A stretch of 36,566 bases of DNA from Bacteroidales bacterium (GTDB taxonomy: Bacteria; Bacteroidota; Bacteroidia; Bacteroidales; VadinHA17), in the NCBI GenBank assembly GCA_019429325.1, contig JAHYJA010000015.1, positions 1-36,566 of the forward strand. The letters run 5' to 3'. Shown here one piece after another: positions 1,561 to 21,697 of the stretch. Both the position numbers and the translations under genes were made by a program. Each line of letters begins with the position of its first letter. Within the stretch, counting starts at the first letter, position 1. The notes under the pieces are model-generated. The model saw nothing but the letters and a program-made list of their open reading frames with translations, was not told the origin of the DNA and did no database searches.

Positions 1561-2982
1561 ATGAAAAGATTCCTGATTCAAACCGGCACCCTTATGGTGT
1601 TTCTGATTGCTTTTACGCTGTCGCTCAGTGCAGAAATAAAACTCCCTTCCATTTTCGGCGACAATATGGTCCTCCAGCAGCAGACTAATGCTGCGATATG
1701 GGGTAAGGCCACACCAAATTCCACCATCAGTGTAAGAGCTTCATGGAACAACAGGAGTGTCACCACACGGGCCGACAGTGAGGGCCGATGGAAACTGAAG
1801 GTTCCAACACCGGCTGCAGGAGGTCCTTATACTGTAACAATAAGCGACGGAAAACCTGTTACGTTAAGGAATGTGATGATCGGTGAAGTATGGATCTGCT
1901 CGGGGCAATCAAATATGGAGATGCCAATGAAGGGCTACAGAAATCAGCCGATAACAGGATCGAATGAGGTCATTGCCACATCTGCAAACAACTCCATCCG
2001 ACTGATCACTGTGCCACATGTGACAAGTCTTGCTCCGCTGGATGACTTCACCGGATCGTGGAAAGCTTGCGGACCGGCAAATGTGGCCGAGTTCAGCGCT
2101 ACTGCATATTTTTTTGGTATAATGCTTAACAAGGTATTGAATGTACCCGTTGGTCTTATCTGTACCAGTTGGGGAGGCACACGTATCGAACCCTGGATTA
2201 ACGAAGATGGCCATAAGAATTTTGATTGGGTAAAATTACCGGATAAAACCCAGAAGCCAGATAATCTATCAGCCCAAACCCCCACAGTGCTCTTTAATGC
2301 AATGATCAATCCCCTGGTGGGGTATGGCATCAGGGGAGCTATCTGGTACCAGGGAGAATCAAACCGGAATGAACCCGTCCAGTATCAGAAGCTTATGCCC
2401 GGACTGGCAGATAACTGGAGATCGGTGTGGGATATAGGTGAATTCCCTTTCTACTACGTTCAGATAGCACCATTCGATTACGGACCAACGGGACTGAATT
2501 CAGCCTATCTGAGAGAAGCTCAGCTTAAGGCTGTTAAGGACGGCACCAATATGGGAATGGCCTGCATAATGGATACAGGTGAAAAGGATAACATCCATCC
2601 GGCCGATAAGAAAGTGGCAGGTGACAGACTTGCATACCTGGCCCTGGCAAAAACCTACGGAATGCAGGGTTTTGCCTGCGAGGGCCCCGTCCTTAAAGAA
2701 ATGACTGTGGAGGGGACGCAGGTAAAACTCACATTTGACAATGCACCAAACGGGCTCACTTCGTTCGGTAAGGAGCTCTCCAACTTCGAGGTTGCCGGAG
2801 CCAACAAAAGATTCTATCCGGCCACAGCCTTCATTACATATAATGGAATAACACTCTTTTCACCTGTTGTGGGTGAACCTGTTGCGGTAAGATACGCATT
2901 CAAAGATTTCGTTATTGGAGATCTGTTCAATACAGAAGGTTTGCCGGCCTCATCGTTCAGGACGGACGACTGGGAACCATAA
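1561..2982 (+). CDS. Sialate O-acetylesterase family SGNH hydrolase, exported
   Basis: The protein has 473 residues and begins with a clear signal peptide (KRF, hydrophobic stretch, cleavage near LSAE at about 24). An N-terminal beta domain (about 25-105) is followed by the SGNH hydrolase core. GQSNM at 115-119 supplies the catalytic Ser117, WYQGESN at 262-268 is the second family block, and DNIH at 343-346 supplies the general-base His346. These features match the 9-O-acetyl sialate esterase/SIAE family, which removes acetyl groups from sialic acids or from acetylated plant glycans. The length is usual for the family. It probably acts in the periplasm or outside the cell. It lies 53 bases after the ApnO-like gene, and a repeat element starts a few bases after its stop. 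Confidence 0.88.
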   Translation: MKRFLIQTGTLMVFLIAFTLSLSAEIKLPSIFGDNMVLQQQTNAAIWGKATPNSTISVRASWNNRSVTTRADSEGRWKLKVPTPAAGGPYTVTISDGKPVTLRNVMIGEVWICSGQSNMEMPMKGYRNQPITGSNEVIATSANNSIRLITVPHVTSLAPLDDFTGSWKACGPANVAEFSATAYFFGIMLNKVLNVPVGLICTSWGGTRIEPWINEDGHKNFDWVKLPDKTQKPDNLSAQTPTVLFNAMINPLVGYGIRGAIWYQGESNRNEPVQYQKLMPGLADNWRSVWDIGEFPFYYVQIAPFDYGPTGLNSAYLREAQLKAVKDGTNMGMACIMDTGEKDNIHPADKKVAGDRLAYLALAKTYGMQGFACEGPVLKEMTVEGTQVKLTFDNAPNGLTSFGKELSNFEVAGANKRFYPATAFITYNGITLFSPVVGEPVAVRYAFKDFVIGDLFNTEGLPASSFRTDDWEP

Positions 2983-2987
2983 TTAAA

Positions 2988-3141
2988 AGTCATTCGATTG
3001 TCATTCGATTGTCATTCAATTGTCATTCAATTGTCATTCAATTGTCATTCAATTGTCATTCAATTGTCATTCAATTGTCATTCAATTGTCATTCAATTGT
3101 CATTCAATTGTCATTCAATTGTCATTCAATTGTCATTCAAT
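2988..3141 (+). repeat. 11-bp tandem repeat array, copy 1 (14 units)
   Basis: Fourteen head-to-tail copies of an 11-mer with consensus TGTCATTCAAT fill this stretch. The first two units carry CG in place of CA and the rest are almost identical. The array begins 5 bases after the esterase stop and ends at TGTTTAA, 19 bases before the start codon of the four-helix-bundle gene. The same 11-mer occurs 10 times at 12065-12174 and 5 times at 21364-21418, again followed by TGTTTAA. The units are too short and uninterrupted to be CRISPR. Confidence 0.95.
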
Positions 3142-3160
3142 TGTTTAAAATATTTAGAAA

Positions 3161-3565
3161 ATGAAATTAGATGAATTACAGGTTTATAATTTGTCGATGG
3201 AACTGGCTGAAAAGATTTGGGATATTGTTATAAGGTGGGATTATTTTCAGAAAGATACTATCGGAAAACAACTGGTGAGGGCTGCTGATTCTATAGCTTC
3301 CAATCTGAGTGAAGGATTTGGACGTTACCATTACAAGGAAAGTGTCAACTTCAGCTATTATTCCAGAGGGTCTCTGTTCGAAACGAAAACCTGGCTCACA
3401 AAAGCAACCAACAGAAAGCTGATCCAACCGGACTCCTTTAACTCATTTATGGAAGAAATAGATAATATTGGAATTAAACTTAACAACTATATAAAATCCA
3501 TAGGAAGAACCTCCAATCAACCACCAAATGAGATCCGCCGCGCAGCGGCGAATGACAGCGCGTAG
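3161..3565 (+). CDS. Four-helix-bundle protein (S23 / 23S rRNA intervening-sequence type)
   Basis: This is a 134-residue, mostly helical protein. Recognisable signatures are the opening LQVYNLSMELAEKIW, the central QLVRAADSIASNLSEGFGR at about residues 38-56, and the later SLFETKTWLTKA. This is the TIGR02436 family, known from proteins encoded in 23S rRNA intervening sequences and structurally related to Avd of diversity-generating retroelements. The biochemical role is unknown; nucleic-acid binding is usually suspected. The gene sits between the 11-bp array and the hairpin array. Its last roughly 10 residues are translated from the repeats, with the TAG stop inside a hairpin, so the protein exceeds the usual 115-120 residues. 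Its lower GC than the arrays and its position suggest it is the cargo or partner of the repeat element. Confidence 0.88.
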   Translation: MKLDELQVYNLSMELAEKIWDIVIRWDYFQKDTIGKQLVRAADSIASNLSEGFGRYHYKESVNFSYYSRGSLFETKTWLTKATNRKLIQPDSFNSFMEEIDNIGIKLNNYIKSIGRTSNQPPNEIRRAAANDSA

Positions 3566-3637
3566 CGCTGAATGACGTCCGACGTTAGGAGGACGAATGA
3601 CGTCCGCCGTCAGGCGGACAAATGACTATTGAATGAC
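3526..3637 (+). repeat. Hairpin array with AATGAC spacers, copy 1
   Basis: Short palindromes are separated by the heptamer [G/A]AATGAC. In order they are CGCCGC-GCA-GCGGCG (3536-3550), AGCGC-GTA-GCGCT, an imperfect GTCC...GGAC hairpin, and GTCCGCC-GTCA-GGCGGAC, then TATTG and a final GAATGAC. AATGAC is the reverse complement of the GTCATT core of the left-hand 11-bp repeat, so the two arrays face each other around the four-helix-bundle gene. The array ends 13 bases before the GH92 start codon. Confidence 0.9.
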
Positions 3638-3650
3638 AAATCTTGCAACC

Positions 3651-4660
3651 ATGAAGCAAACACTTACAATCATCCTGGCTATCATCAGCATAACAGCCAG
3701 TGCCCAGCCACCCCTTCAATATGTCAATACACTTATCGGCACTGCTCAGGCAACCACCGAAAGCGCCAGGAAGCACAGCGAAGCAGGATCGGAACTGAGG
3801 GGACAGACCTTCCCTGCAGTGGGAAGACCATTTGGAATGACCCAGTGGACACCTGAGACAAGAACAACCGAGGACAAATGTATTCCACCCTATTACTATA
3901 ACGACCGCTATATCACCGGCTTTCGCGGCAGTCACTGGATGAGCGGAAGCTGTACCCAGGATATACCAGGGATGGGGCCAGCCTGCCGGATTCAGCGGTC
4001 ATTTCGTGATCAAGTTTGACAAACCCTTTTTATTACTCGAGCAACTGAAGGATCCCCGGCAGATGGATAGAACCGTTTGATCCATTCTCAAAGGCAAGCT
4101 TTATTTGTGAAGGTACGCCCTTCCATTACACCTGGTATGTGCCTCACAATATACCCGGACTTATTTCGGTGATGGGAGGAGAAAGAGCTTCTACCGGCAA
4201 ACTTGATATGTTTTTCAAGGAGGGGCATTACTGGCACGGAAACGAACCGGGTCATCAGATACCATTTCTGTACACTATGGCCGGGCGTCCGGACAGGACA
4301 ACGGAACAGGTCGACAGGATCATCAGGGAGGAATATGGTACCGGGCCGGGAGGACTGAGTGGCAATGAAGATGCCGGACAGATGTCAGCCTGGCTCGTGT
4401 TTTCCATGATGGGCTTCTACCCGGTCTGTCCCGCCACAGATAAATATTATATCACAACACCGGCATTTGATGAAATAAAAATCAATTTACCGGGAGGTAA
4501 CTATTTCCTGATCAGTACTGTAAGCAGTAAACCGGGAAGCAGATACATCAGGGCAATAACAAAGGGAGGAGGGGTCTATCCGCACTGGTATATCACACAT
4601 GAGGATATTATGAAAGGAAGCAGGTTTACTTTTCAGCTTACGGACAAGCCACTAAATTGA
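3651..4660 (+). pseudogene. GH92 alpha-mannosidase remnant, middle deleted and frameshifted
   Basis: The start codon is followed by a good signal peptide (ILAIISITASAQ) and then by GH92 N-terminal blocks: YVNTLIGT, TFPAVGRPFGMTQW, and GSHWMSGSCTQD (frame of 3651). The next recognisable piece, GHFVIKFDKPF at 3997, is one frame on. From about 4063 a third frame gives FHYTWYVPHNIPGL, the acidic GNEPGHQIPFLY, GNEDAGQMSAW and the C-terminal beta domain to the TGA at 4658. A full GH92 is about 700-780 residues, so more than half is missing, chiefly between FDKPF and the PFHYTWYVPHN block. GH92 enzymes are calcium-dependent inverting exo-mannosidases acting on glycans. With two frame changes and no catalytic middle this copy cannot work. 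A misassembly cannot be excluded. Confidence 0.85.
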
Positions 4661-4793: not shown

Positions 4794-6803
4794 TTATTTT
4801 GGAACCGGAAGGTTCATTTTTTCACAGATGTCTATAAATCTGGGATTGCTGAACAATGGATCAAGATTACCCATCTTTGTGGCTATGTATATCGTTGCCG
4901 GATCATGTATTTCAAATGCCTTTTCAATGCAGACCATGGCTTTATCAGGTTGATTTGCATAAATATATCTCAATGCAAGATCGAAGGGTGAAATGGTATT
5001 GTTTTGAACAACTTCTTCCAGATGTTTCATGATTTCGTCATAGGCCGAAACAATGCCCTGGTCGTGGTAGATCCTCTCTATTTCTTTAAAAGCAACTTCT
5101 TCAAAAAGAAACGGTAGTAAGTGTTTTTCTGCTGTTAACACTTTGTCATATTCTTTACACCTGTAAGCAGCCATTAGCATACCATTGTTAGCTAATATGT
5201 TCCCCTGATCAGCTGCAATAACCTCTTCAACAAGAGACAAGCCTGTTTTACAATCACCTGCCATCAGCAGAGTTGCTCCATACCAACTCTTCATATTATG
5301 ATTTAATGGGTCGAGGCTATAAGCAAGCTTTCCCTGTTCCAATGCTTCATCATCCCTTTGCAGAACCGCCAATAACTGTGAATAGAAAATCCTTGAGAGG
5401 GCATCGTTGGGATTAATGGCCAGGGCTTTTAAGAATTCCTTTTCGCTCTTTTCCCAGTTCCATTCCACCAGATGAGCAATCATGGCATTTAAATAATGAG
5501 CTACAGCAAGATCCGGATCCAGTTCCAGTGTTTTATTTAGGTTCTCGAAAATTTTTGGACCTGCAACATCGGGTGGTTCATAACCCATCTGTTGTATTCC
5601 CATCCAGACTTGCGTCAGACCTGCATAAAGAAGCGCCAGGTCCGGATCTTTCTCCACTGCGCTGTTTAAGAATTCAAGGGCTTTATACAACGATTCCCTG
5701 CTAAAATCATTCCGGTAAGAAAGGGATTTCAGATATTGATCATATACTTCAAGATCCGTATCCGGTATTTTTTCGATGAGCCGTTTTTCCTGAGGGGATA
5801 TCAGAGCCTTCAGCTCCTTGGCAACTGATTGAGCCACATCACTCTGCATTGAAAAAATATTGGACAGGTCGCTCAGATCACCATCATAAACCTCCGACCA
5901 GAGATGTGTGTCGTTCCTGGCGTCTATAAGCTGAACGGTTATCCTTACAAGGTTCCCCGCCCTTCTCACACTCCCTTCAAGAATGGCCCCGACACCAAGT
6001 TCCCTGGCTATCTCTTTAATGGAAAGATCGGTATTCCTGTACTGCATGGAGGACGTACGTGAGATGACCTTCAGATCACCAATCTTGAAAAGTCGGTCCA
6101 GTATCTCATCCATCATACCGTCGCTGAAATAGTCCTGGTCCGGGTCAGGACTAAGATTGGTGAACGGCAGTACGGCAACTGACTTGTCAAGTGGTCCCAT
6201 TTGATCCAGAAAATTCCTTCTGATCGACGGCACAAGAAGCAGGAGAGCAAACAGTAAAATAATTATTGCGGTTACAGGTACTCCCAGCTTTATCCACGGT
6301 GATCTGTACCGGCCCTTCCCCGAAACCGGCTTACCGGTCTTTCCCAGCCGCAGGGTTCCCTTACTGATGGCTTTTTCAATATCCTCGTCTTTGACCTCAT
6401 CCTTTGAAAGCAACATTTTAACCACTCTGGCTAACCGGTCAATGTGTTGTTCAAGCGGAGGGGCCATGGCATCGAGCCAGTGGACATCGCTTAGGTAATA
6501 TTCGAGCTGATTTGACATCGGAACATCCTCGAGGCGGAGTGTTATGACAGATAACCCGTGGTGCACCGCCCGGTCCACTTCTTTAATAACCTGCGGAGAA
6601 ATGTTCGAGTTTTGTGTATAGACGAGGATAAAAACCCTGGATTCTTTTATGGCTTTGATAATGGCTTCGGCAAAGGGGACTCCGGGTGTAATATCCCGTG
6701 GAGCGATCCAGCTTGAGGTGCCGTTTTGTTCCAGTATGGAGCAAACAGTGTCAGCAGCGGTCTTGTCGACGCTGGAGTAGCTTATAAAAACATCATGTGC
6801 CAT
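4794..6803 (-). CDS. TIR - membrane helix - TolB/FlgO-like - TPR protein
   Basis: The protein has 669 residues. Residues 1-135 are a TIR domain: DVFISYSSVDK (box 1), WIAPRDITPG (32-41), and IKEVDRA, in which Glu75 falls where NADase-type TIR domains have the catalytic Glu. A hydrophobic helix at about 173-194 is followed by Arg-Arg, so the TIR end is probably cytoplasmic and the rest may be outside. From 208 comes SVAVLPF, the start of a TolB/FlgO N-terminal-like domain with DQDYFSDGMMDEILDRL and LEGSVRRAGN. TPR-like helices fill about 350-669. TIR domains either signal by protein contact or degrade NAD+; which applies here is unknown. Among the family in this window it is the only one with a membrane helix. 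It shares its upstream block with the genes ending at 11946 and 21245. Confidence 0.85.
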   Translation of the reverse strand: MAHDVFISYSSVDKTAADTVCSILEQNGTSSWIAPRDITPGVPFAEAIIKAIKESRVFILVYTQNSNISPQVIKEVDRAVHHGLSVITLRLEDVPMSNQLEYYLSDVHWLDAMAPPLEQHIDRLARVVKMLLSKDEVKDEDIEKAISKGTLRLGKTGKPVSGKGRYRSPWIKLGVPVTAIIILLFALLLLVPSIRRNFLDQMGPLDKSVAVLPFTNLSPDPDQDYFSDGMMDEILDRLFKIGDLKVISRTSSMQYRNTDLSIKEIARELGVGAILEGSVRRAGNLVRITVQLIDARNDTHLWSEVYDGDLSDLSNIFSMQSDVAQSVAKELKALISPQEKRLIEKIPDTDLEVYDQYLKSLSYRNDFSRESLYKALEFLNSAVEKDPDLALLYAGLTQVWMGIQQMGYEPPDVAGPKIFENLNKTLELDPDLAVAHYLNAMIAHLVEWNWEKSEKEFLKALAINPNDALSRIFYSQLLAVLQRDDEALEQGKLAYSLDPLNHNMKSWYGATLLMAGDCKTGLSLVEEVIAADQGNILANNGMLMAAYRCKEYDKVLTAEKHLLPFLFEEVAFKEIERIYHDQGIVSAYDEIMKHLEEVVQNNTISPFDLALRYIYANQPDKAMVCIEKAFEIHDPATIYIATKMGNLDPLFSNPRFIDICEKMNLPVPK

Positions 6804-10101: not shown

Positions 10102-11946
10102 TTATTTATACGGCAGTCCCATCTTCCGGGCAATTTCCCGAAATCTGGGTTCATCACGAATAGGATCAAAAGCTGGCATTCTCAGATAAGGCATACTGGG
10201 ACTATGTATTTCGTAGGCTTTCTCCCAACAATCCAGGGCTCTTTCATTATTACCTGCCATAAGATACACAAGTGAAAACATCGCAGGATCTACAAAAGTA
10301 GTTTCAGATAATACTTCAAGTGCTTCCGTAGCTTTGATTAAAGATTCGGCATATCCCAGTTTTTTAAAGTCAAGTTCAAAAGCCTGCCCTTTACCCATCA
10401 TTATGAATTCTTTTTTTATCGACTCCCAGGCTTCCTCAAGCCTTCCGTTCTTATGTAATATATCAGTTAGAACTGTTTGAGCAACCGGAGATAATGGTTC
10501 CATTCGAATTGCTTCCCGGGCTGCTTCAAGTGCTTCATCAAAACGACGGACCAACCAGAGGTCAACACTATAAAGACTGATTATAAGAGGATTATATGGA
10601 TCCAGTTTCAGGGCTATCTGAATCTCTGCCATTGCTTCTTCAGTTCTCCCCAATATGTTCAGGAGATGTGAGTAGTATGCATGTGCTTCCGCATGATTGG
10701 GATTGATCTCAAGTGCTTTTTTAAATGCTGATTCTCCGGCTTCCCAGTCCCACATCATCCATGTAGTTATACCAGCCTGAGCATAAATTACCTCTTCATT
10801 ATTGCTGTCCAGTTCTGTAGCCTTCATCAGTGCTTCCATGGTTTTTGGGCCACCTTCTTCAGGAGAAATAAGCCCCATTTGGATTAACGCACCATAGACA
10901 AAAGCAATTCCTGCGTAAGCGGGAGCATATTCAGGATCTTTTTCTATTGCCAGCTCAAAATATTTCATTGCGGTTTCAAGCTCATTCCGTGTCAGTTTTC
11001 TCCAGTAAAACATGCCGCGAAGGTAAGCATCGTAAGCCTCAGTATTTTTTGTGGGTTTCTTCTCAATGAGATCCAGCTCCTGTGGTGACAAAACAGCTTT
11101 CAACTCCCTTGCCACAGATTGAGCCACTTCACTCTGAATAACAAATATGCGTGACAGATCACTCAGATCTCCGTTGTAAATCTCTGACCATAAGTGGGCA
11201 TCGGTTCCGGCATCAATCAGCTGAACGGCAATGCGCACCATATTGCCTGCTCTGCGCACACTGCCTTCAATTATGTTTGCTACTCTCAGTTCCCGGGCAA
11301 TTTCCTTTATCGATTTGTCACTATTCTTATAATGCATTGAAGAAGTTCGGGAGATCACCTTCAGATCGCCGATCTTGAAGAGACGGTCAAGGATCTCCTC
11401 CATCATCCCGTCGCTGAAATACTCCTGTTCAGGATCGTTGCTTATGTTCTTAAAAGGCAGCACGGCAATGGACTTTTTATCCTGCCCCACCTGTAATATT
11501 CCATCCCTTATGGCTTTTTCGAGATCTTCCTCTCTGGCACCATCTTTTCTGAGAAGGATTTTTACCACTCCCGATAATTTATTAATGTGATCTTCCAACG
11601 GAGGTGTCTTTGCATCGAGCCAGTGAACACTGCTCAGGTAATATTCAAGTTGTTTTGACAGTGGTATATCTTCGAGCCGGAGGTTAATGACCGGAAGCCC
11701 CAAATGTACTGCCCGGTCCACTTCCCTGATAACCTGTTTGGAGTTATTCGAGTTTGATGAATAGATCAGGATAAACAGTTTCGATGATTTTATACCATCG
11801 ATGATAGCCTCTGCAAAATCAAGTCCCGGGGTGATATCCCTCGGAGCGATCCAGCACGAGATACCGTTTTGTTCAAGAATGGAGCAAACAGTGTCAGCAG
11901 CGGTCTTGTCGACGCTGGAGTAGCTTATGAAAACATCGTGTGCCAT
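10102..11946 (-). CDS. TIR - TolB/FlgO-like - TPR protein (soluble form)
   Basis: The protein has 614 residues. The TIR domain (1-135) has DVFISYSSVDK, CWIAPRDITPG and VIREVDRA with Glu75. Instead of a membrane helix, a short linker (ILQVGQDKK) leads straight into SIAVLPFKNISNDPEQEYFSDGMMEEI at about 158 and a TolB/FlgO-like domain with IIEGSVRRAGN. TPR-type repeats (YFELAIEKDPEYAPAYAG, ALEINPNHAEAHAYY, ALKLDPYNPL) reach the C-terminus, ending in RFREIARKMGLPYK. It is close to the kinase-headed protein at 15427 from the TolB part onward, and nearly identical to the protein at 19395 over its first 180 residues or so. No signal peptide or membrane segment is visible. The role is unknown, with signalling or defence possible. 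Confidence 0.85.
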   Translation of the reverse strand: MAHDVFISYSSVDKTAADTVCSILEQNGISCWIAPRDITPGLDFAEAIIDGIKSSKLFILIYSSNSNNSKQVIREVDRAVHLGLPVINLRLEDIPLSKQLEYYLSSVHWLDAKTPPLEDHINKLSGVVKILLRKDGAREEDLEKAIRDGILQVGQDKKSIAVLPFKNISNDPEQEYFSDGMMEEILDRLFKIGDLKVISRTSSMHYKNSDKSIKEIARELRVANIIEGSVRRAGNMVRIAVQLIDAGTDAHLWSEIYNGDLSDLSRIFVIQSEVAQSVARELKAVLSPQELDLIEKKPTKNTEAYDAYLRGMFYWRKLTRNELETAMKYFELAIEKDPEYAPAYAGIAFVYGALIQMGLISPEEGGPKTMEALMKATELDSNNEEVIYAQAGITTWMMWDWEAGESAFKKALEINPNHAEAHAYYSHLLNILGRTEEAMAEIQIALKLDPYNPLIISLYSVDLWLVRRFDEALEAAREAIRMEPLSPVAQTVLTDILHKNGRLEEAWESIKKEFIMMGKGQAFELDFKKLGYAESLIKATEALEVLSETTFVDPAMFSLVYLMAGNNERALDCWEKAYEIHSPSMPYLRMPAFDPIRDEPRFREIARKMGLPYK

Positions 11947-11990
11947 ATATGGATTTGTTAAGGAATTGATCTCCTTTTAAAGTTTTATGA

Positions 11991-12021
11991 TAAAGGTAAT
12001 AAACGGATGTATATGAGTCAA
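11991..12021 (-). promoter_or_regulatory. Candidate promoter of the TIR gene at 10102-11946
   Basis: Minus-strand TTGAC, 18 bases, TACCTTTA, 45 bases before the ATG; same block as at 6849-6879 and 21290-21320. Here the 11-bp tandem array begins only about 45 bases upstream, so array length could influence promoter context. Confidence 0.5.
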
Positions 12022-12064
12022 GAATATTTTGCCGGAAGACGGAAATGTCAGGTGAGATTTAGAT

Positions 12065-12174
12065 GGTCATTCAATGGTCATTCGATTGTCATTCAATGGT
12101 CATTCGATTGTCATTCGATAGTCATTCAGTGGTCATTCGATTGTCATTCAATGGTCATTCAATTGTCATTCAAT
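12065..12174 (+). repeat. 11-bp tandem repeat array, copy 2 (10 units)
   Basis: Ten 11-mers of the form [T/G/A]GTCATTC[A/G][A/G]T stand head to tail and end in TGTTTAAC. The units alternate more (GGTCATTCAAT, TGTCATTCGAT) than in copy 1. The following bases, CAATGAATGAC, form an inverted repeat with the last unit, and the hairpin array starts at once with no four-helix-bundle gene in between. Confidence 0.93.
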
Positions 12175-12182
12175 TGTTTAAC

Positions 12183-12302
12183 AATGAATGACGTCCGCCG
12201 GTAGGCAGACAAATGACTACTGAATGACGGCGCAGCCGAATGACAGCGCGTAGCGCTTAATGACGGCCGAAGGCCAAATGACGTCCGCCGGTAGGCAGAC
12301 AA
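12183..12302 (+). repeat. Hairpin array with AATGAC spacers, copy 2 (gene-less)
   Basis: The order is GTCCGCC-type hairpin, TACTG, CGGC-GCA-GCCG, AGCGC-GTA-GCGCT, GGCC-GAA-GGCC, GTCCGCC-type hairpin, each separated by NAATGAC. It abuts the broken TIR gene at about 12303, whose reading frame runs on through it as meaningless residues. Compared with copy 1, the four-helix-bundle gene is absent. Confidence 0.9.
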
Positions 12303-13952
12303 AGCTTCTTCAGTAAGAGGCAAACTGTTTTTGCAATCACCTGCCTGCACCAATGTACCTATATACAGAAGCTTTGTCAAAGGATTTAACGGATCAAGGC
12401 TGATAGCAAGTTCTCTCTGTGCTATTGATTCATCACTCCTGTTCAGGATCAGTAACAACTGTGCATACATCAGCCTTGCGTCAGGGTTGTTGGGATTAAT
12501 GGCCAGGGATTTTAGAAATGCTTTTTCGCTCTTTCCCCAGTCCCATTCCACCAGTTGAGCCATGACGGCACTCTGGTAATGAACCTCAGCAAGATCCGGA
12601 TCCAGTTCCATCGCTTTATTAAGGTTTTCGGCGATTTTCGGACTTGCAACAGAAGGTGTTTCCCACCCTTCTTGCTGTATCCATATCCAGATCTCAGCCA
12701 ACCCTGCATACAAAGGTGCCCAGTCAGGGTTTTTCCCAATGGCGCTGTTCAGATATTCAATTGCTTTATATAGCGATTCCCTTGAATAATCACTAAAATA
12801 AGAACGGGCCTTCAGATATTCATCATATACCTCAATATCTGCGCTTGGTATTTTCTCAATTAGCCGTTTCTCTTCAGGAGAAATGACAGCTCTGAGTTCA
12901 TTAGCTATTGATTCTGCAATCTTTATCTGTATGTTGAAAATATCTTTAACATCATTTATCTCGCTCTGGAACGACTCACCCCAGAGATGTGACTCATGCT
13001 CTGCCTTGATCAACTGTGCCCTGAGGCGAAAGGAACTCCCGTATTTCTGCCCGCTGCCCTCCACAATGTAGTTTACACCCAGTTCTTCTGCAATCTCTGA
13101 GATGGATTTGCTTTGCCCCCTGAATTTCTCAACAGAGGTACGTGAAATCACCCTGAGGTCTTTTATCCTTTGAAGGTTGTTAAGTATCTCTTCCATCACA
13201 CCATTGATGAAGTAGGTGTTCTCCTGATCGGGACTGTCGTTGATAAAGGGCAGCACGGCAATGGATTTCTCCAATTCTACTACTGATTCTGATACTGATG
13301 CTGCTTTCCCGGCTTTTGTTGTAATCTCTCCGGGTTGAAACCCGGAGTTTCTTATTGCTGTGATGATTTCCTTTATTGCAAGAGCCACCTTGTTTATCTG
13401 ATTACGGTACCTGGTTTTATTCATGTTCGTTTTAGGGTCATCATCCGGGGTAAGCGGCCTGTTCACACCCGGTTCCCTGTAAATGAACTCTATGCCCCTG
13501 AGAAAACCTCCCAGCACCGATTCGCATAGACTTGTATCATCGCTGTCGAGGTCGTGAATGGTCACAGGCAGTACCCTGCCTGCAATATTTCCGTTGGGTA
13601 GTTTAACCTTCAGTCCGTACTGATCGTCAGTTGCCTGTTTAACAAAAGCCATGAACTCGTTCACCCATGCAAAGGATTTCGGATCGCAATAGGTTCTTGA
13701 AAGGACAGGGATGAAGATGAGGCATTTGAGCTTCTCTTTCAGTGAGGCATCGACATCATGGGTCTCCAGGAGCCCGTCGTGCGGGTTGATGTCGAAATAG
13801 ACACTTATCTCTTCCTTAAAAGTAGCTTCGAGCTCTTTCTGAAGATTTTCGACAAATCCGGTCACCCAGCCGTCGTACTTATTGTCCTTCTGACGTTAGG
13901 AGATGAAGATGTCGTAGTTGTAACCGGGGATAATACTGGGCATGATATCCAT
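12303..13952 (-). pseudogene. Divergent TIR - TolB/FlgO-like - TPR gene, broken at both ends
   Basis: The ATG at 13952 opens MDIMPSIIPGYNYDIFIS, then a TAA (13898-13896) stands where the family has the Tyr of the FISYRQKD box. A single C-to-A change (TAC to TAA) would explain it. Downstream the frame stays open: VYFDINPHDGLLETHDVDASL, LKCLIFIPVLSRTYCDP and a long insert typical of this second TIR subtype. SIAVLPFINDSPDQENTYFINGVMEEI follows at about residue 230 of the full frame, then TPR helices like those of the 4794 gene. At LPLTEEA (near 12303) homology stops because the hairpin array replaces the rest; about 155 C-terminal residues are missing relative to the 4794 protein. A re-start at the GTG at 13865 would lack the first TIR strand. 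A sequencing error at the stop is possible, but the 3' loss is not. Confidence 0.8.
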
Positions 13953-19394: not shown

Positions 19395-21245
19395 TCACTT
19401 GATCAATCCGTACTTTTGATATAAAGGCCTTAATCGGTGGTGGTTGTGAAGCTGGTATTCTTGAATCGGGATGATCGCGCACCAGGGAAGAAAATTGTCC
19501 CTTTCTTCGCAGGCCCGCTTCAACCAATCATACGTTTGATCCAAGTCCTTGCGGAAAAAATAAACGTAGGCGAATCCCAGCGCCGGCATATATTCCTGCC
19601 GGACTCTCTGCTCCAGGCTTTGCAAAAGAGTCTCTCCTTTTTCGATCTGATCCGTCTCAAAATAATTGCAGGCCAACATCAAAGCCGGCCAGGGAGCCCC
19701 TCCGGAAAGCTCAACCGCCTTCTCAAACTCGGCAATATTCTCTTTGCGCATTTGTTTGCCCCGGTAAGCCAATCCCAGATAATAGTGCATCAGATAGAAA
19801 TCCGGAGCCAGGATCATTCCCGCCTTCATTTCCTGAATGGCTTTATCGTACTGACGGCCCCAGATGCAGGCCAGGCCGACGTGAGCAATAATCAGGGGTG
19901 AGAGTGGATCGAGCTCCTGGGCCCTTTTGGTTTCAGCGACGGCTTCCTCATGCCTTTCCGTGAGTGTTAAAAACCAGGAATAACTCAAGTGAATGATGGC
20001 CGAACTCGGATTCAATTCCAGAGCTGTGGCCAATTCGCGCCCCGCTTCCTTCCCGTTCCAATCATAAAATGCGTAGACCATCCCTAAAGAGGCATGAGCC
20101 TCTCCGATCTCTTTATCGATTTCTATGGCTTTTTTCGCAAATTCCTTGACTTTCGGATACGCCTGATGAGGAGGAACGTTTCCCCAGTAGGAGATGGCAT
20201 AAAAGACTTCACTCAACCCGGCATAAGCGAGGGCATAATCCGGATCTTTTTGAAGGGTGAGCTCGAAGTATTTGATGGCCTCCTGGAATCCTTCGGCCGT
20301 ATATCTTCGCAGATTGAAAATCCCTTTCAGGTAGAGATTGTAAGCTTCCGGATCTTCCGTATACCGCTTCAGCAGCGCTTTTTCTTCCCGTTTTAAAAGC
20401 GTGACTTTGAGGTTGTCAACGATGGCAAATGAGATCTCGTCCTGAATCGCGAAAATGTCTTCCATGTCTCGGTCAAATTTCTCAGACCACAGGTGAAAAC
20501 CGTCCGCGACGTTGACAAGCTGCGCCGTGATGCGCAGTTTGTTTCCCGACTTGCGGACACTGCCTTCCAGGATTTTTTCAACATTCAGCCGCTGGCCCAC
20601 CTCACGCACGTCGATATATTTTCCTTTAAAGGCAAAGGCGGAGGTTCTGGCAACGACTTTGATATCTTTTATTTTGGTCAAGGAATTGATGAGTTCTTCG
20701 GCCAAACCGTCGCAGAAATACTCCTGGTCAGGATCGTTGCTTATGTTCGTAAAAGGCAGCACGGCAATTGATTTTTTATCCTGTCCCACCTGCAGTATGC
20801 CATCCCTTATGGCTTTTTCGAGATCTTCCTCCTTGGCTCCATCTTTCCTGAGAAGGATTTTTACCACTCCCGATAATTTATTAATGTGATCTTCCAACGG
20901 AGGTGTCTTTGCATCGAGCCAGTGAACACTGCTCAGGTAATATTCAAGTTGTTTTGACAGGGGTACATCCTCCAGCCGGAGATTAATGACAGGAAGCCCC
21001 AAATGTACTGCCCGGTCCACTTCCCTGATGACCTGTTTAGAGTTGTTCGAGTTTGATGAATAGACCAGGATAAAGAGTTTCGATGATTTTATGCCATCGA
21101 TGATAGCCTCTGCAAAATCAAGTCCCGGGGTGATATCCCTCGGTGCGATCCAGCAGCTTATGCCGTTTTGTTCCAGGATGGAGCAAACAGTGTCAGCAGC
21201 AGTCTTGTCGACGCTGGAGTAGCTTATAAAAACATCGTGTGCCAT
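19395..21245 (-). CDS. TIR - TolB/FlgO-like (second type) - TPR protein, chimeric
   Basis: The protein has 616 residues. Residues 1-180 or so are nearly identical to the protein at 10102-11946, including FISYSSVDK, CWIAPRDITPG, Glu75 in IREVDRA and SIAVLPFTNISNDP. Just after DQEYF the two part. Here CDGLAEELINSLTKI, VVARTSAFAFKGK, ILEGSVRKSGN and IFAIQDEIS belong to the TolB/FlgO-like subtype usually found behind kinases or adenylate cyclases in other phyla. TPR helices follow (YFELTLQKDPDYALAYAGL, ALELNPSSAIIHLSY, AQELDPLSPL). The 3' half appears GC-richer than the 5' half, so the gene seems to be a fusion of a resident TIR/promoter cassette with a foreign tail. No membrane segment is seen. 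Confidence 0.85.
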   Translation of the reverse strand: MAHDVFISYSSVDKTAADTVCSILEQNGISCWIAPRDITPGLDFAEAIIDGIKSSKLFILVYSSNSNNSKQVIREVDRAVHLGLPVINLRLEDVPLSKQLEYYLSSVHWLDAKTPPLEDHINKLSGVVKILLRKDGAKEEDLEKAIRDGILQVGQDKKSIAVLPFTNISNDPDQEYFCDGLAEELINSLTKIKDIKVVARTSAFAFKGKYIDVREVGQRLNVEKILEGSVRKSGNKLRITAQLVNVADGFHLWSEKFDRDMEDIFAIQDEISFAIVDNLKVTLLKREEKALLKRYTEDPEAYNLYLKGIFNLRRYTAEGFQEAIKYFELTLQKDPDYALAYAGLSEVFYAISYWGNVPPHQAYPKVKEFAKKAIEIDKEIGEAHASLGMVYAFYDWNGKEAGRELATALELNPSSAIIHLSYSWFLTLTERHEEAVAETKRAQELDPLSPLIIAHVGLACIWGRQYDKAIQEMKAGMILAPDFYLMHYYLGLAYRGKQMRKENIAEFEKAVELSGGAPWPALMLACNYFETDQIEKGETLLQSLEQRVRQEYMPALGFAYVYFFRKDLDQTYDWLKRACEERDNFLPWCAIIPIQEYQLHNHHRLRPLYQKYGLIK

Positions 21246-21289
21246 AAATGGATTTGTTAAGGAATTGATATCCTTTTAAAGTTTTATGA

Positions 21290-21320
21290 TAAAGGTAATA
21301 AACGGATGTATATGAGTCAA
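21290..21320 (-). promoter_or_regulatory. Candidate promoter of the TIR gene at 19395-21245
   Basis: Minus-strand TTGAC-18-TACCTTTA, as before the two other intact TIR genes. The identity to the 11944-12075 region continues through the promoter and into the first 11-bp repeats, showing that promoter, TIR domain and repeat edge were copied as one block. Confidence 0.5.
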
Positions 21321-21363
21321 GAATATTTTGCCGGAAGACGGAAATGTCAGGTGAGATTTAGAT

Positions 21364-21418
21364 GGTCATTCAATGGTCATTCGATTGTCATTCAATTGTC
21401 ATTCAATTGTCATTCAAT
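21364..21418 (+). repeat. 11-bp tandem repeat array, copy 3 (5 units)
   Basis: Five 11-mers (GGTCATTCAAT, GGTCATTCGAT, then three TGTCATTCAAT) end in TGTTTAACAATGAATGAC, the same junction as copy 2. It is the shortest of the three arrays. Confidence 0.93.
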
Positions 21419-21426
21419 TGTTTAAC

Positions 21427-21697
21427 AATGAATGACGTCCGCCGACAGGCGGACAAATGACTACTGAATGACAGCGCGTAGCGCTTAATGACGGCCGAAG
21501 GCCAAATGACGTCCGCCGACAGGCAGACAAATGACTACTGAATGACGGCGCAGCCGAATGACAGCGCGTAGCGCTTAATGACGGCCGAAGGCCAAATGAC
21601 GTCCGCCGACAGGCAGACAAATGACTACTGAATGACGGCGCAGCCGAATGACAGCGCGTAGCGCTGAGTGACGTCCGACATAAGGAGGACGAATGAC
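21427..21697 (+). repeat. Hairpin array with AATGAC spacers, copy 3, with 90-bp super-repeat
   Basis: The same hairpin types as in copies 1 and 2 (GTCCGCC/GGCGGAC, AGCGC/GCGCT, GGCC/GGCC, CGGC/GCCG, GTCC/GGAC) are joined by NAATGAC. The AGCGCGTAGCGCT hairpin recurs at 21473, 21563 and 21653, an exact 90-bp period containing one of each main hairpin type. The array ends flush with the stop codon of the enolase-superfamily gene (21699). Open frames through it encode only repetitive nonsense. Confidence 0.92.

Follow-up and report, generated by a model that had tools for sequence, protein, structure and literature searches.

What kind of unit is the repeat block at positions 2988-3637 of this contig, and does it belong to a wider class of movable DNA? 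By the window we mean the whole stretch analysed, 36,566 nucleotides long. The block consists of a 14-copy array of an 11-bp unit, a four-helix-bundle (4HB) gene of the PF05635/TIGR02436 family and an array of AATGAC words and hairpins. Its left arm (2989-3144, plus strand) holds the 11-bp unit GTCATTCAATT, repeated 14.2 times in tandem (TRF score 298, 99% match). The 4HB gene (3161-3565, plus strand, 134 aa) matches Pfam PF05635 (23S_rRNA_IVP) and NCBIfam TIGR02436, each at 4e-27, with the domain match at 3173-3484; its relative in the PDB is 2gsc (2e-5), which is XCC0516, by name the Xanthomonas protein. The last codons run into the first hairpins of the right arm (3536-3637, plus strand; TRF 3539-3576 and 3570-3626), where four hairpins alternate with AATGAC, a word whose reverse complement is the left arm's core, GTCATT. 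Folded as single-stranded DNA, the stretch 3530-3640 gives these four hairpins and does better than 200 of 200 shuffled sequences (z -4.69). A preliminary description of this DNA had taken array, gene and opposite array to be one unit, and TRF, Pfam/NCBIfam, the sequence and the fold all bear this out. The block lies outside any rRNA gene, between a SASA esterase gene (1561-2982, plus strand; Pfam) and a GH92 gene (3633-4660, plus strand), the two anchors for same-site comparison in relatives. The GH92 gene is apparently broken into two short pieces (ORFs 3633-4019 and 4139-4660, with the Pfam GH92 N domain on the first). The 4HB gene is the only family-matched ORF between the arms, and there is no transposase inside; elsewhere in the window, a 219-aa ORF at 17861-18520 matches the transposase family Y2_Tnp (PF04986).

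Two gene-less copies of the same arrays, also claimed in the preliminary description, are indeed present at 12063-12303 and 21365-21697. In copy 1, the left array (12063-12177, plus strand; TRF 174 as a 33-mer, 154 as an 11-mer) is connected via ATTGTTTAACAAT to an AATGAC/hairpin right arm (12180-12303, plus strand; from the sequence and ORF list) which overlaps the 3' end of a minus-strand TPR ORF. In copy 2, the left array (21365-21421, plus strand; TRF 100) is followed by an AATGAC/hairpin right arm (21430-21697, plus strand; TRF 405 and sequence) with a 90-bp higher-order repeat at 21466-21678. The DNA fold of the hairpin part is weak in copy 1 (z -1.21, with 21 of 200 shuffles equally good) and stronger in copy 2 (z -3.62). 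Three TIR-TPR paralogs occupy the minus strand (4794-6803, 10102-11946 and 19395-21245); the first two have TIR and TPR matches, and the third starts with nearly the same sequence as the others. Copies 1 and 2 lie a short way upstream of the second and third, respectively, where the flanking sequence is almost identical (11900-12060 and 21200-21360). The TPR ORF at 12159-13865 (minus strand) passes through the hairpin array of copy 1 with its final ~40 codons, so that the gene's end appears to have been cut off or replaced by the array.

Across the organism's own genome (3.39 Mb, 263 contigs), a search for two adjacent units with at most one mismatch, which single or decayed units would escape, gave 55 matches at 15 loci, and a backwards control pattern gave none. 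A 4HB gene is present at one of these loci; the AATGAC right arm is found at 12 of the 14 gene-less ones (10 of the 12 outside the window) and is absent at L267 and L269. The same genome has seven PF05635 genes, and only that of the window lies in GTCATT arrays. By eye, however, all seven are enclosed by opposed arrays of short repeats, the word being particular to each gene (for example AGTTGGC/GCCAACT, GCAGGTC/GACCTGC and GTTTGTAAAG/CTTTATAAAC), and four of the seven reach an arm score of 22. This score comes from one simple local alignment of the left flank against the reverse complement of the right flank, and the threshold of 22 was chosen after the data were known; the window element itself scores 21, just under it, although GTCATT and AATGAC are plain reverse complements.

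The arrangement recurs far beyond this genome. PF05635/TIGR02436 genes occur in 51 of 60 relatives, with up to 18 PF05635 genes per genome. For genes taken from the top of the listed hits in relatives (36 loci and 40 more), the arm score exceeded the 95th percentile of 2000 random windows in 59 of 75 cases and the 99th in 47, compared with 9 and 5 of 75 in direct orientation; the random windows came from 400 kb of six genomes (G000, G001, G026, G032, G053 and G059). Among 82 of the 87 4HB hits at the best 80 of 575 loci obtained for one subfamily across many phyla, 56 exceeded the 95th and 31 the 99th percentile of mismatched flank pairs (14 and 7 in direct orientation). Because the relatives represent top listed hits and the second set the best 80 of 575, these rates are not those of a random sample; rows omitted were 2 of 36 in the first scoring (short flanks), 5 of 80 in relatives and 5 of 87 in the trans-phylum set. 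The titles of the latter name Bacteroidota, Desulfobacterota, Proteobacteria, Planctomycetes, Omnitrophota, Clostridia, Acidobacteria and candidate phyla. When distinct hits from genus, order, many phyla, plasmids and further loci were pooled, 107 of 182 scored at least 22, a value reached by 2 of the 94 control genes (90-220 aa; Fisher 9e-24); a duplicate (L155, identical to L040) was removed from the pool but is still inside the trans-phylum 82. The 75 hits below threshold include the window's own (L005), L003, L006, and L210 and L212, the latter two from the empty-site comparisons described below. Given these counts, the statistical link between 4HB genes and arrays on which the preliminary description had staked its reading exists, and the lack of any such link, which it had named as evidence against itself, is not what we found. 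The link is nonetheless not to GTCATT/AATGAC arrays as such, as that description had it: in our set these belong to the window's subfamily, while other 4HB genes have other words, and we rejected a general link of the family to this word pair.

Searching the 400 kb for arm pairs more than 200 bases apart yielded three, of which L115 accounts for two and L117 for one; in L115, paired arrays built from a single word lie between several further genes. At L053, gene-less inverted hairpin arrays adjoin a 4HB element (by eye). On plasmids, where nine loci from 45 records were examined, opposed short repeats were seen by eye at eight, with none visible at L214; they include GGGAGTA/TACTCCC between nrdB and nrdA in Nostoc, GGTGACAGG/CCTGTCACC between cas6 and cas4 in Anabaena, and arms at one Riemerella 4HB gene beside sufB. 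A search of six cyanobacterial loci against Rfam gave zero matches up to E 0.1. Three 4HB genes (L211, L221 and L263) lie within CRISPR-Cas clusters (cas6/cas4, cas10/cmr3), which might explain the appearance of 23S rRNA IVP in surveys of CRISPR association; PF05635 is named, for instance, in the legend of a figure that deals with associations of CRISPR adaptation (PMC10910872).

Several properties of the arms are shared across the class. The arms lie close to the gene, at a median of 42 and 20 nt from the domain, and the repeat word is mostly 7-9 bp long, compared with 11 bp in the window family. Of the 107 armed hits, 74 have a clear period: 7 (32 hits), 14 (16), 8 (16) and 9 (7), with 6, 10 and 11 once each. 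The upstream arm is G-rich in 101 of the 107 (4 opposite, 2 zero) and also in 36 of 38 hits scoring 18-22. This polarity fails in the window family, which supplies three of the four opposite cases (L286, L287 and L290, the last being two entries that are pieces of one broken gene) and two near zero (L005 and L289). Part of the polarity may be strand bias, since the 4HB coding stretch is mostly G-rich itself (88 positive, 17 negative) and the same tendency is seen in weakly armed hits, 30 to 7. Entries with fewer than 60 bases of flank or with runs of N, among them L288 of the window family at a contig end, were excluded from the analyses of polarity, period and word. Hairpins inside the right arm were seen by eye in the window subfamily only.

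At the level of the class, the arms of one element match each other better than they match those of other elements, and the word differs between elements. The word tracks the protein weakly, clearly so only above 60% identity (Mantel r 0.123; the largest of 300 permutations gave 0.114). One Flavobacterium site offers six loci with a common downstream gene start (by eye) and 4HB proteins 64-91% identical; L176 was excluded as its left flank differs. Own arms there score 21.5 on average, against 14.0 between species, but only in three of the six is an element's own right arm the one that matches best, so that support for co-change of the two arms is mixed.

Are the arms part of what moves? The preliminary description had proposed comparing empty and filled sites, and at two cyanobacterial plasmid sites the comparison gives a well-supported answer: arms and gene were inserted together as a unit, with a 5-bp duplication. 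At the first, arms plus gene are present in T. variabilis plasmid C and in a Scytonema plasmid 97% identical to it, while six more records (97.5-98% identity) match only both sides of the insert; in the two of these that were examined, Microchaete and N. linckia, there is nothing at the site and no array. The insert is flanked on either side by GTAAT, which the empty site has once. A further record, Nostoc C052, retains a remnant. At the second site, in Nostoc plasmids 91-94% identical, three are filled (L212, L224 and L231) and three empty (L228, L229 and L230); here the insert is bordered on each side by TTCTA, next to which one base differs. Both duplications come from elements of one repeat word. 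Four other cyanobacterial pairs (L207/L232, L263/L276, L209/L307 and L208/L308; 86-92% identity) yielded no readable duplication, and in Bacteroidota the filled and empty pairs are too diverged to read, the window element included. Between cas6 and cas4, Anabaena 90 and Dolichospermum give no clean empty site, as the second plasmid carries another insert, and Pseudanabaena ABRG5-3 (L222) has a short array there. The plasmids also harbour a gene-less element whose TCAGAAT arms enclose ~100 nt of conserved sequence, at 100 places in 43 plasmid records (loci L225, L226, L227, L231, L233-L247, L257 and L258). One copy lies within a 4HB gene with a 0-1 bp duplication, and 10 of 14 listed copies border GATAA.

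For the window family itself the evidence is of a different kind. Counting at least three words on a side, GTCATT-left/AATGAC-right arms were found only at the window protein's four nearest relatives in the set (G081, G015, G025 and G016), which are 65-80% identical to it; the gene in G016 is broken. The neighbours differ in three of them, G015, G025 and G016 (FAD oxidoreductase, outer membrane efflux protein, hexapeptide transferase/DegT), and from this occurrence at unrelated places we infer that the family probably moves as a unit. At the window's own site, two relatives have no array (G034 and G076), one has one unit without a gene (G075), one a gene-less hairpin (G030) and one a decayed array without a gene (G064). 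Arrays and gene thus come and go at this site, and since some relatives have array or unit but no gene, gain of the gene looks the same there as its loss. In G081 the element at this site is flipped and is followed by sequence resembling that beside gene-less copy 2 (by eye). Its arms are arranged as in the window when read in the gene's own orientation, which indicates that the whole element is flipped; an inversion of the gene between fixed arms was therefore rejected. Another site, L004, holds in the same gap three different armed 4HB genes with different words (in G000/G007, G075 and G025), as well as one remnant (G014) and one gene-less hairpin (G070).

Among the closest known systems is the intervening sequence (IVS) of 23S rRNA in Leptospira and Coxiella, a 4HB/S23p ORF between complementary ends for which mobility was proposed by Ralph and McClelland in 1993 (PMC4990558). 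The same source describes a homopentamer for the IVS-family protein in Xanthomonas and a family without known function. Protein family and single ORF are shared; ends complementary at the score threshold occur in 107 of the 182 hits of the class, with the window element just under it. The IVS lies within rRNA genes, whereas the elements examined here are outside them as far as seen, the Coxiella IVS ends in a 28-bp stem rather than in tandem arrays of element-specific words, and here PF05635 genes reach 18 in a single relative. The preliminary description knew of no described system of this kind; the IVS is a described relative, although for arrays around 4HB genes we recognised no account in titles and abstract openings of a literature that largely excluded subscription journals and preprints. 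The words themselves resemble the short, mostly 7-bp intergenic tandem words of the heptamer repeats, namely cyanobacterial STRR, the GGGAATC type of Xanthomonas and Nostoc, and TAACTGA of Beggiatoa, with the difference that here such heptamers flank cyanobacterial 4HB genes. Repeats of the STRR kind were reportedly described in 1990. Xanthomonas heptamers include 70 and 75 inverted pairs in two genomes and are accompanied by an account of those of Nostoc (PMC4692102), and the Beggiatoa repeats are described in PMC4679880; neither 'four helix' nor 'S23' occurs in the main text of these two papers. REP/RAYT systems (REPtrons) likewise have hairpin repeats around one small gene and many gene-less copies, as do the 14 gene-less loci here, 12 of them with the hairpin arm, but the gene here is a PF05635 4HB gene and not a Y1 transposase, and most 4HB arms are without inner hairpins (by eye). 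MITEs share gene-less copies with inverted ends, for which the TCAGAAT element is a parallel, yet here the ends are arrays of variable length. Unlike a classical DNA transposon or IS, the window element has no transposase inside; a 5-bp target duplication was read at two sites, of one repeat word. Finally, PF05635 has been described as resembling the DGR accessory protein Avd (PMC10053308). No RVT_1 match was found in 30 of the 51 relatives with 4HB genes, and RVT_1 and 4HB counts are not significantly correlated (Spearman 0.15, p 0.24), so we rejected a reverse transcriptase as obligatory partner, although absences are soft because the assemblies are incomplete. The organism's only RVT_1 match lies on contig C43 and the window is C206, so that none stands beside the Avd-like gene.

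How, then, should the arms be explained? Accidental inverted matches in low-complexity intergenic DNA could in principle produce them, and some control windows do score high (maximum 34 among 2000); the contrast with control genes and the lack of equal enrichment in direct orientation refute this, and we regard chance or base composition as extremely improbable. It is also rather improbable, in our judgement, that the arms are the stem of a transcript which brackets the 4HB message for RNase III processing or regulation, with selection on the stem keeping the arms complementary. The Coxiella IVS does form such a structure, its 28-bp terminal stem being cut by RNase III around the ORF (PMC4990558), and the arms here are close to the gene and mostly polar relative to it. 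Their mismatches, however, are not enriched in G-U-compatible types relative to A-C types (328 vs 371, p 0.11); an RNA-wobble signature was accordingly rejected as absent, which would favour recognition or copying at the level of DNA over an RNA stem. Another reading, which we think unlikely, makes the block non-autonomous and the 4HB gene cargo, with hairpin ends on which a Y1 transposase (RAYT/IS200 type) works in trans. The right arm of the window family is rich in hairpins, and Y1_Tnp matches occur in 49 of 60 relatives, with numbers that correlate with those of 4HB genes (Spearman 0.36, p 0.004); the organism's own genome has five such matches, all on contigs other than the window's. Insertion with a 0-1 bp duplication beside GATAA, as in the one readable case of the TCAGAAT element, resembles the IS200/IS605 rule. 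Against this, the two readable 4HB insertions show 5-bp duplications instead, inner hairpins are by eye lacking from most 4HB arms, and 6 of the 51 4HB genomes have no Y1 match, again a soft absence in incomplete assemblies. We found no catalytic protein as a constant partner of 4HB elements.

The remaining alternative treats the arrays as residents: standalone intergenic short-repeat or REP-like arrays outside any mobile unit, in which 4HB genes are passengers swapped by recombination between arrays. That 14 of the 15 GTCATT loci found in the organism's own genome are gene-less fits this, as do the relatives whose array, decayed array or single unit at the window site lacks a gene, the different 4HB genes and words that share one gap at L004, and G081, where the window's left neighbour is by eye joined to sequence like that flanking copy 2 as if by inter-array recombination. 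Yet the empty plasmids are array-free at both sites, where arms and gene arrived jointly with a 5-bp duplication; G034 and G076 are array-free at the window site; and GTCATT arms are tied to one protein subfamily, which passengers would not need. We consider resident arrays a somewhat unlikely explanation. With little more than even confidence, we favour the view that the window block is a member of a widespread class in which one 4HB gene lies between inverted short-word arms that are the ends of the element, with gene-less arrays as its relatives. The preliminary description had spoken of an autonomous element and gene-less derivatives; the gene-less relatives exist and may descend from gene-bearing copies or have preceded them, and the 4HB protein is a putative driver of movement.

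If the arms are the ends of an element, an oligomeric 4HB protein related to Avd may bind the repeated word or the DNA hairpin of an arm and assist a trans-acting enzyme in cutting, copying and joining. What would keep the two arms in step is either a need for both to be recognised or the copying of one from the other, and gene-less hairpin arrays would be derivatives or empty frames of the same ends. A bolder version, which we offer tentatively and hold to be somewhat doubtful, is that these elements form a trans-phylum mobile class with inverted arrays as ends, in which the short word changes freely, and with a non-enzymatic 4HB oligomer as sole protein. Such a class would move by a route unlike that of any known transposase and leave gene-less hairpin arrays behind, thereby giving rise to some of the short tandem repeats (cyanobacterial STRRs, for instance) with which many bacterial intergenic regions are filled.

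In summary, we read the armed 4HB elements as kin of the 23S rRNA intervening sequence, with gene-less relatives. That the arrangement recurs in many bacterial groups, usually with another word, points to a kind of movable DNA that may be widespread but has been little described. The recurrent inverted, word-specific arrays give the 4HB family a testable role, the recognition of DNA or RNA ends in a mobile element. They would also offer an origin for families of short intergenic repeats known from separate accounts of cyanobacteria, Xanthomonas and Beggiatoa, and through them the old guess of a mobile rRNA IVS would become testable outside rRNA.
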